NCBI GenBank assembly: GCA_013388645.1
Contig: JACAEV010000125.1
Location: forward strand, 1 to 52,842
Length of the DNA: 52,842 nucleotides
DNA from: Syntrophaceae bacterium
Lineage (GTDB): Bacteria > Desulfobacterota > BSN033 > UBA1163
Direction: 5' to 3'
Position numbers and translations under genes: made by a program. Of this stretch, positions 12,600 through 41,582 are shown in pieces (the stretch's first letter is position 1; each line of letters starts with the position of its first letter). A model generated the notes under the pieces. That model did not search any database and had not been told where the DNA came from. It worked only from the letters and a program-made list of their open reading frames with translations.

Positions 12600-13483
12600 T
12601 TTTTGGTTTTCTTTTCTTTTTTCCCTTTTTCTTCTTTGGGCGGAGAGGGAAGGAGTGGTTCCATGATGACAAAGACCTCTTCCAATTGAGTTAAATCCAC
12701 ACTGGGCACTAACTCCGCATATTGGAAGACACCGTGACCCCTCTTGTCGACCCTCCTGACTTCACCGATCCTCAGTCCCTTTGGAAAATTACCGCCCAAT
12801 CCAGATGTGATGACAACATCTCCTACCGCCACCTCATCCGTACGAAGCAGATATTTCAATTGGCATCGGTTTTCTCCTTTCCCTTCAACGATGGCCTTGG
12901 CGCGGGTTCGCTGAACCACAGAATCGATGGCACTATTATAATCGGTCAGCAGAAGGACCACAGCATAATCGGGGGCCGTCTTCAGAATTTGGCCGACCAC
13001 CCCTGTTGGCGAAATGACCGCCATCCCTTTTTTCACTCCATCCCGTTCTCCTTTATCAATCGTGAGGCTCTTAAACCAGGAAGAGGGATCCTGACCGATT
13101 ACTTCGGCCCCAACCATTGATGAAGGTTTTTTTTCTCGAAATTGGAGAAGCTCCCTCAGCCGTTCATTGGCTAATTTTATCTCCTTCATCTGGTGATTCT
13201 CTTCTTGGAGTTGAGCTATTTTCTGTTTGAGGATCCTGTTCTCTTCTTCAAGGTTGATTAAAAAGAGGTATCGCTGGAAGGTCCCTTGGACAGTCTTGAT
13301 GGCCAAGGTAGCCCCTTTCTGGAAAGGAGAGCAGATCTCCATCAATAGGGCATCGAAAAAATCGACTCCTTTCCTCTGTTTCGCTCTCAACGACATCAAA
13401 ACGAGGGCGAACAACAAAAAGAGGACGATGAAAATGGGAAGGCTATATCTTCGGGAGAGGAAAAAATCACGAATCCTCATCAA
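12596..13483 (-). CDS. mreC: Rod shape-determining protein MreC
   Basis: 295 aa: N-terminal membrane helix (about 14-31), coiled coil (about 72-112, EENRILKQKIAQLQEENHQ), then two beta-barrel periplasmic subdomains with DKGERDGVKKGMAVISPTGVVGQI, typical of MreC. The C-terminus ends in a Lys/Glu tract. It scaffolds PBP2 and MreD. It starts 3 nt after the mreB stop. Confidence 0.93.
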   Translation of the reverse strand: MMRIRDFFLSRRYSLPIFIVLFLLFALVLMSLRAKQRKGVDFFDALLMEICSPFQKGATLAIKTVQGTFQRYLFLINLEEENRILKQKIAQLQEENHQMKEIKLANERLRELLQFREKKPSSMVGAEVIGQDPSSWFKSLTIDKGERDGVKKGMAVISPTGVVGQILKTAPDYAVVLLLTDYNSAIDSVVQRTRAKAIVEGKGENRCQLKYLLRTDEVAVGDVVITSGLGGNFPKGLRIGEVRRVDKRGHGVFQYAELVPSVDLTQLEEVFVIMEPLLPSPPKEEKGKKEKKTKK

Positions 13484-22864: not shown

Positions 22865-24292
22865 CTATTCTACGATCTCCACTTTGATGAGGTTGGTCGT
22901 TCCTCGAATGCTGATCGGAACTCCCGCGATGATGACGATCCGGTCTCCTGTTGAGGCCATCCCTAATTCCTTAGGAATTCTTTTCGACCTCTCCAACATC
23001 TCATCCGTATCTTTCCACTCAGAGACAAGGATGGGATAGACTCCCCAGCAGAGATTAAGCCTTCTGACCGTTGATAGATGTCTGCTTAAAGCCAGAATGG
23101 GTTGTTTGGGCCGAAGTCTTGACACCCAGCGAGCTGTGCTTCCCGATTCGGTTGGCGTTGTGATCACCTTTGCCTCCACATCCTGCGCCAGTAACGAAGC
23201 TGCATAGGTGATCGCCTGCTGGAGATTCATTTCCTCATCTTTCTCCTTCCTCAAAAATAGGGGGTGAGGAAATTCTTCTTCTGCTGATTGAACAATCTTT
23301 GCCATCATCTGGAATGCTTCAACGGGGAATTGGCCGCTGGCTGTCTCCTCCGAGAGCATGACCGCATCGGTCCCATCGTAAATGGCGTTGACGACATCAG
23401 TCACCTCCGCCCGGGTGGGTTGGGTATGGTCCACCATGGAACGAAGCATCTGGGTGGCCGTGATCACAGGTTTTCCTGAGGTGTTAGCCTTCCGAATCAA
23501 TTTCTTCTGAACATTCGGAATCTTTTCAATCGGAGTCTCCAAACCTAAATCACCTCGGGCCACCATAATGCCATCTGAGGCCGAAATAATCTCGTCGATA
23601 TTTTCCAATGCCTCTTTTCTCTCAATCTTTGCAATGATCGGCAGATTTGCTGACTCTTTCTTTAAAAAATTTCTTACCCTCTCGATGTCGGAAGCTTTTT
23701 GAATGTAAGAAAGGCTCACCAAATCCACGCTCTGCTGAATGCCGAACAGAAGGTCTTCATGATCCTTCTCTGTAAAGGTCGAAACCAGAGGGGTCCGGGT
23801 GGGAAAGTTCATCCCCTTATGAGAAGTTAACACCCCCCCTACCATGACCCGACATCGAACATTTCTTCCGTCGCTATCCAATACCTGAAGGTCAATCGTT
23901 CCATCTGCTAGCAGGATTCTATCGCCTGGTTTGACATCGTTGGGAAGAGCAGAATAAGTGACCGTCGCCTTGGTTTCGTCGCCGATGAGTACCTGGTTGG
24001 TCAGATAAAACTCCTTCCCTCTTTTTAACTCTGCCCCACCTTTTTTCATCATGCCGATCCGAATTTTAGGACCACCGAGATCTTGAAGGATGGCCACGGG
24101 TTGTTTCAATCGCTCAGAGATTTGCCGGATGGCTTTGATCTTCTTTAAATGCTCTTCATGGGTCCCATGAGAAAAGTTGAGGCGTGCCACATTCATCCCA
24201 CCTTTAATCATCTCTTCAAGAATCTGTGGCGACTCACTTGCCGGACCAATGGTGCAAACAATCTTCGTCTTTCGCCTTTCCACTTGATTCAT
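22865..24292 (-). CDS. pyk: Pyruvate kinase
   Basis: 475 aa from the ATG at 24292, which has GAGGGGAAG just before it; a GTG four codons upstream is less likely. It has KIVCTIGPAS, LNFSHGTHEEH, the catalytic segment IAKIERKEALENIDEII, ARGDLGLETP and PTRAEVTDVVNAIYDGTDAVMLSEETASG. It converts phosphoenolpyruvate and ADP to pyruvate and ATP. The C-terminal domain is of normal length. Confidence 0.96.
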   Translation of the reverse strand: MNQVERRKTKIVCTIGPASESPQILEEMIKGGMNVARLNFSHGTHEEHLKKIKAIRQISERLKQPVAILQDLGGPKIRIGMMKKGGAELKRGKEFYLTNQVLIGDETKATVTYSALPNDVKPGDRILLADGTIDLQVLDSDGRNVRCRVMVGGVLTSHKGMNFPTRTPLVSTFTEKDHEDLLFGIQQSVDLVSLSYIQKASDIERVRNFLKKESANLPIIAKIERKEALENIDEIISASDGIMVARGDLGLETPIEKIPNVQKKLIRKANTSGKPVITATQMLRSMVDHTQPTRAEVTDVVNAIYDGTDAVMLSEETASGQFPVEAFQMMAKIVQSAEEEFPHPLFLRKEKDEEMNLQQAITYAASLLAQDVEAKVITTPTESGSTARWVSRLRPKQPILALSRHLSTVRRLNLCWGVYPILVSEWKDTDEMLERSKRIPKELGMASTGDRIVIIAGVPISIRGTTNLIKVEIVE

Positions 24293-24387
24293 TCTTCCCC
24301 TCACTATTTGAAACGAGACGGAATTATTCCCATATTTAAAAATATTATCTTAAAGCTTCTTCCCTGTCTATAAAATTATAGCCATTC

Positions 24388-24623
24388 GTAATCCCACAGT
24401 GATGGGTTAGCACTCCATTGTCCCAACAGGAATGCTTTCGAAAATCTTAGAATTCGGGTTGGAATATTATCTTTCATGTTAAGGCTGGATTCGCCGATGG
24501 AATGGAGTCGTGAGATAGGCTGAGTGAACCGATCAAGTGAAAGAACGAAGCGAAGGTTCCCCCTCTAACATTTTCTCCAGCCTCCCTATCGGTCCTGTTT
24601 GGTACCCGAAACGGAGGGATGAC
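24388..24623. mobile_element. MITE-like element, copy 1 (236 bp, non-coding)
   Basis: Flanked by a perfect 14-bp direct repeat (24374-24387 and 24624-24637), the sign of target duplication. Its ends are imperfect inverted repeats: GTAATCCCACAGT at the left against the complement of the right end, GTCATCCCTCCGT (10 of 13), with a second matching block further in (CCCAACAGGA versus CCAAACAGGA). It aligns over its whole length, at roughly three-quarters identity by eye, with 41325-41563. No reading frame of note. It fills most of the 430-nt gap between pyk and the SDH protease; the rest is AT-rich. Confidence 0.8.
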
Positions 24624-24642
24624 AATTATAGCCATTCTTTAT

Positions 24643-24670
24643 TTGCAAAATTTATTTTTATGGATATAAT
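24643..24670 (+). promoter_or_regulatory. Sigma70-type promoter for the SDH protease gene
   Basis: TTGCAA (24643-24648), a 16-nt spacer and a perfect TATAAT (24665-24670), 52 nt before the ATG. The -35 begins 5 nt after the target duplication of the MITE-like element. Confidence 0.65.
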
Positions 24671-24722: not shown

Positions 24723-25577
24723 ATGAACAATATTCTCAACATCCTGTGGATCATCATTTTGATTCAGATCTTCATCCCCTTACTCATGAAACGCTTTTTG
24801 GCCGCCAAACGACTGAAGATCATGCGGGATATCGAAAAAAAACGCGAATCCCGAGTCGTCACAATGATCCATCGACAGGAAACCATGAACTTTTTGGGCT
24901 TTCCCATCGCACGATATATCGACATCGAAGACTCAGAGCATCTGCTTCGAGCCATCCGCATGACCCCCATAGATATGCCCATCGATCTTGTCCTGCATAC
25001 CCCGGGTGGACTCGTCCTTGCTTCGGAGCAGATCGCCTGGGCTTTGAAACGTCATCAGGGGAAGGTCACCGTCTTTGTCCCGCATTATGCCATGTCGGGC
25101 GGGACGCTCATCGCCCTTGCTGCGGATGAAATTGTTATGGATCCTGATGCCGTCTTAGGCCCCGTCGACCCCCAGTTGGGAAGCCCTCAGACCGGATACT
25201 ACCCTGCTGCTTCGATCCTAAAGGCACTGGAACAACCGAACCCCAATCGCGATGACCACATCCTCATTCAGGGTGATATCGCCAAGAAAGCCATTGCACA
25301 GGTTTATCAAACGATCTACAGGCTGCTCTTGGAACATCAGACCCCAGAAAAGGCTTCGGAATTAGCCAAAATGTTTAGCGAGGGACGTTGGACTCACGAT
25401 TATCCAATAGATTTTGAAGAGGCAAAAGCTATGGGGCTTCCAGTCAGTGAACAGATGCCAGAAGAAATATACCAATTGATGGAACTTTTTCCTCAAGCAA
25501 AACCGCAACGCCCTGGGGTAGAATTTATCCCGATCCCTTATCGGACTCCTGGGGCCCCGGGCAAGGGGGAGAAATAG
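24723..25577 (+). CDS. Membrane-anchored SDH-family (ClpP/crotonase-fold) serine protease
   Basis: 284 aa of the serine dehydrogenase proteinase family (PF01972). An N-terminal membrane helix (about 3-21) anchors a ClpP-like domain: DLVLHTPGGLVLASEQIA (oxyanion loop), HYAMSGGTLIALAADEIVMDP with the nucleophile Ser125, and LGPVDPQLG. As in SppA, a Lys downstream (Lys188 or Lys189 in GDIAKKAIAQVY) could be the general base. The C-terminal WTHDYPIDFEEAKAMGLPV is family-like. It probably faces the cytoplasm. An AGGGGGAGG site and a TATAAT promoter precede it; a zinc-ribbon gene follows by 105 nt. Confidence 0.87.
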   Translation: MNNILNILWIIILIQIFIPLLMKRFLAAKRLKIMRDIEKKRESRVVTMIHRQETMNFLGFPIARYIDIEDSEHLLRAIRMTPIDMPIDLVLHTPGGLVLASEQIAWALKRHQGKVTVFVPHYAMSGGTLIALAADEIVMDPDAVLGPVDPQLGSPQTGYYPAASILKALEQPNPNRDDHILIQGDIAKKAIAQVYQTIYRLLLEHQTPEKASELAKMFSEGRWTHDYPIDFEEAKAMGLPVSEQMPEEIYQLMELFPQAKPQRPGVEFIPIPYRTPGAPGKGEK

Positions 25578-41303: not shown

Positions 41304-41324
41304 TAAGGACAATGATTCAGAGCG

Positions 41325-41563
41325 ATAAGCCCTCACTGATGAGTTTTGCGTTCCATCGTCCCGACAGAAATGCTTTTGAAAATCTTAGAATGCGGATTGG
41401 AATATTATCTTTAAAATGGTAAGATTGGATTCACTGATTGAATGGAGAAGTAAGACATGTTAGATGAACCGATCCAGTTGAAGAGCGAATCTAAGGTTCC
41501 CGCTCTAAAATTTTCTCCAGCATCCCTGTCGGTCCTGTTTGATACCAGAAACGGAGGGATGAC
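41325..41563. mobile_element. MITE-like element, copy 2 (239 bp, non-coding)
   Basis: It aligns end to end with copy 1 (24388-24623). Shared blocks include GAAAATCTTAGAAT, TTGGAATATTATCTTT, GAACCGATC, GGTCCTGTTTG and the terminal AAACGGAGGGATGAC. It is flanked by the 8-bp direct repeat TCAGAGCG (41317-41324, 41564-41571). Most of the 339 nt between the HerA-like gene and the small secreted protein gene is this element. Confidence 0.78.
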
Positions 41564-41582
41564 TCAGAGCGTAATTTTTAAA

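Follow-up and report, generated by a model that had tools for sequence, protein, structure and literature searches.

Between the divergent genes for pyruvate kinase (22868-24304, minus strand) and an SDH-type protease (24723-25574, plus strand) of this Syntrophaceae genome lies a 236-bp non-coding unit that is flanked on both sides by the same 14-mer, and the question raised by this locus is what kind of unit it is and which enzyme moves it. The sequence-only reading had taken it for a MITE. We conclude, with a probability of roughly 0.93, that it is a copy of a dispersed non-coding MITE whose long imperfect inverted repeats are a transposase substrate. The window, that is, the whole stretch of 52,842 nucleotides that was analysed, is contig C247 of a draft genome that comprises 3.95 Mb and 250 contigs and is called the own genome below.

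Structure and setting of copy 1

Direct reading of the sequence placed the unit (copy 1) at 24388-24623, and no ORF of at least 60 aa was present within these bounds. When its two ends were aligned, 10 of the outer 13 bases agreed, as the sequence-only reading had described, and 12 of 13 agreed in another copy of the own genome (L002). It is clear from the alignment of both ends that the inverted repeats reach about 75-78 nt inward and carry an inner AAAATCTTA-type box. A sequence profile built on 11 copies (profile R1) also matched well-preserved full-length copies on the opposite strand, indicating that a large part of the element consists of inverted repeats. The left ends of the elements start with GTAAT, GTAAC or GTAAG, and in the own family the right ends mostly read GTCAT.

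The 14-mer AATTATAGCCATTC abuts copy 1 exactly on both sides, and no extension of the repeat was possible either way; the perfect 14-bp direct repeat outside the unit was therefore as the sequence-only reading had it. Two promoter-like sites flank copy 1, and both were left whole by the insertion, as judged from consensus matches only. The earlier observation that the window holds no transposase gene also held, since Pfam detected no transposase in any of the 48 non-overlapping window ORFs of at least 100 aa. The coordinates of the features are collected in Table 1.

Table 1. Positions of copy 1, copy 2 and their associated features in the window, and of a second element on other contigs
Feature	Position	Strand	Basis
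Copy 1 of the MITE, 236 bp, non-coding	24388..24623	+	sequence; own-genome matches; alignments
Left 14-bp target duplication AATTATAGCCATTC of copy 1	24374..24387	+	sequence, duplication scoring
Right 14-bp target duplication AATTATAGCCATTC of copy 1	24624..24637	+	sequence, duplication scoring
Left long imperfect inverted repeat, ~78 nt, outer GTAATCCC	24388..24465	+	end alignment; R1 opposite-strand matches
Inner box GAAAATCTTA of left inverted repeat	24440-24449		end alignment
Right long imperfect inverted repeat, outer GTCATCCC	24546..24623	-	end alignment; R1 opposite-strand matches
Inner box TAACATTTTC of right inverted repeat	24566-24575		end alignment
Promoter-like site TTGCAA-16-TATAAT, between copy 1 and SDH-type protease gene	24643..24670	+	consensus match only
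Promoter-like site TAGACA-17-TAATAT, between copy 1 and pyruvate kinase gene	24342..24370	-	consensus match only
Copy 2 of the MITE, 239 bp, same family	41325..41563	+	82% identity to copy 1 over nearly whole length
Left 8-bp target duplication TCAGAGCG of copy 2	41317..41324	+	sequence, duplication scoring
Right 8-bp target duplication TCAGAGCG of copy 2	41564..41571	+	sequence, duplication scoring
Second element, 102-103 bp, own genome	C158:14478-14580, C32:5857-5958, C83:9334-9436
Second element, 103 bp, Syntrophaceae UBA2208 (the 19-mer matches)	L147:3022-3124, L151:6621-6723

Copies, target duplications and an empty site

The whole-length match between copy 1 and copy 2 that the sequence-only reading had reported was confirmed. 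Far from these being the only two copies, a blastn search of the own genome with copy 1 returned 23 matches, of which 11 measured at least 215 bp. They represent about 20 places, as three match pairs were each counted as one (C6, C132 and the C116/C231 contig overlap). Further diverged copies were added beyond blastn when profile R1 was run on the same genome.

Several other observations were made in the own genome. Copies were found to overlap the 3′ ends of two genes, at L013:1634-2425 and L014:1642-2424 (both minus strand), giving them their last codons and stop; by eye, the genes appear tRNA methyltransferase-like and TsaB-like. One copy (L012, own contig C6, about 12924-13022) has been interrupted by an insert of about 100 bp that is palindromic and GC-rich. 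A pair of half-elements on the same strand of C223, 2 kb apart, was considered as a longer element and rejected, as it had no shared duplication and ordinary-looking genes lay between the halves. A further repeat, about 150 bp long and containing GTAATTCCTCCCTTT, is dispersed over own contigs C37, C17, C28, C39 and C82 (L128-L131, L133, L134) with 90-98% identity between copies.

Abutting direct repeats were scored at boundaries set by alignment, for 16 own copies and for 73 end pairs in fetched relatives, the truncated own copies (L006, L010, L013, L016, L019, L020, L021, L023) being left out. A scorable repeat was observed at 12 of the 16 own copies. It measured 8 bp in eight of them, perfect in five and with a single mismatch in three, 7 bp in two, and 6 bp and 14 bp in one copy each. 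Among the relatives, 48 of the 73 end pairs scored, with 40 repeats of 8 bp, four of 7 bp and four of 9 bp. A score of at least 4 was reached at 60 of 89 element boundaries as against 30 of 2000 random positions, which shows that the direct repeats are not due to chance; no random position of the 2000 reached a score of 8. The boundaries without a scorable duplication (4 of 16 own, 25 of 73 in relatives) include some that were mis-set or came from spurious end pairings: several of the 25 were alternative pairings of one right end, and L015 was counted as a miss owing to a wrong left boundary, an 8-bp GATCTGAG repeat being visible in its sequence.

A duplication of 8 bp is the rule of this family, and since this is the mode in both the own and the relatives' copies, the 14 bp at copy 1 are an outlier. 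The earlier claim of a 14-bp duplication, long for common IS families, therefore stands for copy 1 itself and fails as a family trait, the 8-bp rule being a common IS length. Most simply, the 14-bp repeat would reflect one aberrant case of staggered joining. Its origin in an 8-bp event, either with a later local rearrangement or in a target with a pre-existing repeat, seems unlikely; the duplications of all other scorable copies measure 6-9 bp, which speaks for such an event, whereas the two 14-mers have the same sequence and directly adjoin the element at either end, so that a canonical end would result from neither 8-bp reading of copy 1.

An empty site was sought in 16 relatives. The own copy on contig C215 lies between nadD and rsfS (genes named by eye from the sequence) and is flanked by an 8-bp GAACCCAT duplication. 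The rsfS gene was found in 14 of the 16 relatives, with nadD directly upstream in all 14, and none of these 14 carried the element in the nadD-rsfS spacer. In a relative of the same genus (G002), the sequence past the insertion point (TCATTTTTTATTTGT...) directly follows the short nadD side. Counterparts of the gene downstream of copy 1 were found in 5 of the 16 relatives, none of them beside pyruvate kinase. As there was no synteny at copy 1 in these relatives, the empty site is shown for the C215 copy and not for copy 1.

The many copies, the terminal inverted repeats, the target duplications and the empty C215 site together identify the unit as a MITE, bearing out the earlier reading; the case that would have refuted that reading, just two copies and no empty-site form, is contradicted by these results. 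With 236 and 239 bp, dispersed, and devoid of a transposase gene, copies 1 and 2 also lie within the MITE size range of 50-500 bp given in the excerpt of PMC10969869. That the stretch is instead a conserved non-coding RNA or regulatory element is scarcely credible as a full explanation: the intergenic copy 1 does adjoin promoter-like sites, but it folded no better than shuffled sequences on either strand (z 0.48 and -0.53), the covariation term was unfavourable (+1.08), Rfam gave no match at the element, and the target duplications and empty site speak against it. A secondary RNA or regulatory role may exist beside its transposon nature.

For the MITE, the following course of movement is proposed. 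A transposase made elsewhere would most likely bind the outer GTAAYCCCTCAGT end of the element and probably also the inner AAAATCTTA box, in a two-site binding. The bound transposase would then cut or copy the element, which would be joined to a staggered cut, and repair would leave a direct repeat, normally of 8 bp. The element itself would thus be a cis-only substrate, moved in trans. The full-length IS sharing the termini, for which the sequence-only reading had suggested a search, was not found in the genomes searched, and movement in trans is for this reason something that we infer.

Diverged relatives and the mobilising enzyme

When 98 other genomes were searched by blastn, two short matches and no full-length one were obtained. 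In 14 of the 16 same-family genomes, by contrast, profile R1 detected diverged elements, often of full length, at E ≤ 0.1, several of them at 1e-11 to 1e-15; full-length relatives are therefore detectable by profile only. Marginal matches (0.03-0.07) were seen in 3 of 23 more distant genomes, and among the 40 genomes scanned no match better than E 0.03 lay outside the own bacterial family. Among the relatives, copies were most numerous in G008, where the end motif GTAAYSCCTCASTKA gave 130 matches as compared with 2 for the reversed control; nearly all of the 20 loci fetched from it were elements of 217-230 bp with both ends and 8-bp repeats.

An exact 19-mer of the relatives' end was also sought in a collection of 84,980 species. 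Its hits, in a search that may pass over the own genome, were confined to Deltaproteobacteria bacterium CROMO_BS_46_3 (three contigs) and Syntrophaceae bacterium UBA2208 (two contigs), which makes a host of Syntrophales type most likely. A second, palindromic element of 102-103 bp was noticed, in which ends of this kind (GTAATGCGTCACTGA type) enclose a common GC-rich core; its UBA2208 copies are flanked by perfect 8-bp direct repeats.

The mobilising enzyme was sought through elements with the ends of the MITE. Four transposase families were searched, namely PF03050 (IS66), PF01609 (DDE_Tnp_1), PF03400 (IS1) and PF12762 (IS1595), and no IS with two matching ends was present in the loci returned. 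Forty stretches at unpaired or selected ends were further fetched from G008, G006, G009, G010 and the own genome, 39 from the relatives and one own. Many of them proved to be MITEs with more mismatches in the second end and the rest looked like truncated or lone ends without a transposon, and no autonomous element was found in the 39 stretches from relatives. A facing end pair on contig C25 of G008, 4.5 kb apart, was tried as an autonomous element and rejected, because ordinary genes lay inside.

The odds are about even that the partner belongs to another transposase family (e.g., ISL3 or IS256) or is encoded on contigs that the draft assemblies lack. None of the four families searched matched the ends, and the assemblies are fragmented drafts in which multi-copy IS break contigs, as the multi-copy IS66 does at 12 contig ends of G009 (L107, L110, L112, L114-L122).

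Somewhat less probable, and put forward tentatively as the best lead, is a mobilising enzyme of IS66 type. By this account, which we rate a little below even, the MITE was derived from and moved by an IS66-family element, either ISBst12-like with a single gene or classical, that has since been lost or was left unassembled. GTAA terminal bases are the rule in IS66, and one end of ISDge4 as well as the IS66 copies in G010 and G011 start with GTAA; one end of three of the latter reads GTAACAGTTTAGT[TC]C. The MITE combines this start with an 8-bp duplication as in IS66 members, of which ISPpa5a and ISPpa7 are listed with 8 bp (PMC3281130). Its end in G008 is identical to the ISDge4 end GTAACTGCTCAGCA at 10 of 14 terminal bases, and 9 of 15 bases are shared with the IS66 end in G011. 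This likeness, however, spans 14-15 bases and was spotted after several families had been tried, and the end of the multi-copy IS66 of G009, GTATCACTTTAGC, is likewise a weak match. No PF03050 match was found in G008, the genome richest in copies, or in 7 of the 10 other same-family relatives searched, and in the loci examined no IS66 transposase gene carried the ends of the MITE. The two PF03050 matches of the own genome are RecB-like fusions, and matching ends were not found beside them. As no IS66 transposase was found to be bounded by the same ends, the MITE was not filed as an IS66 member.

The two fusions lie on own contig C133 (L123:2487-5333 and L124:2374-5232, both minus strand) as ORFs of 949 and 953 aa, in which a TM0106-type RecB-like nuclease region (TIGR03491, RNase_H_2) is followed by a C-terminal IS66 transposase domain.

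An IS1634-like element on contig C37 of G008 is an improbable partner. Here an exact GTAACCCCTCAGTTA end is followed, about 70-85 bp further inward, by the start of a 581-aa DDE_Tnp_1 frame (L157), but there is no matching second end and the sequence beyond the first 17 bases is unlike the MITEs of G008. Moreover, IS1634-type elements have 5-6 bp repeats and C-starting ends in the excerpted Table 1 of PMC2266710, as against the 8-bp mode of the MITE. The gene may belong to an IS that inserted into an old MITE. IS1595 was rejected as partner, since PF12762 had no match in the own genome and G008. IS1, tried for its similar ends and variable duplications, was rejected on the same result for PF03400 (0 matches in both genomes).

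Comparison with known systems

No description of this MITE family was found in the open-licence papers searched. Our data define an apparently undescribed MITE superfamily of deltaproteobacteria-type genomes, with clear ends and an 8-bp rule, and the element accounts for the short repeats with which genes of these genomes terminate or which lie between promoters. One genome with dozens of copies offers a tractable case for MITE spread without a visible autonomous partner. That the superfamily has persisted and diversified with one bacterial family and kept a conserved two-box 75-nt inverted repeat over the whole element, with no surviving autonomous IS and moved by a host-resident transposase in place of a parent IS, is highly improbable, and current knowledge of transposition is left unchanged by this family.

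Geobacter uraniireducens, the host of the Chunjie MITE, was formerly placed in the Deltaproteobacteria. Chunjie is 235 bp long and has 38 copies, mostly intergenic, according to the excerpt of PMC10969869; like the MITE reported here it is non-coding, of similar size, and bears terminal inverted repeats and direct repeats, the two being likened by description only. MITEAba12 is presented in the excerpted part of PMC6382973 as a mobile element derived from an IS, non-autonomous and widespread in a bacterial family; it resembles our MITE, again by description only, in being non-autonomous and family-wide, and differs in its host. ISDge4, an IS66-family member of the ISBst12 group, has an 8-bp repeat and a 449-aa transposase in the portion of PMC12898284 that was available. 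It shares with the MITE the GTAAC start, CTCAG at positions 8-12 and the 8-bp direct repeat, whereas it encodes its own transposase, agrees only at the terminal bases counted above and resides in a distant host (Deinococcus). Judged by its structure, and with Chunjie and MITEAba12 compared by description only, the element of the present study is a new family of a familiar MITE kind.
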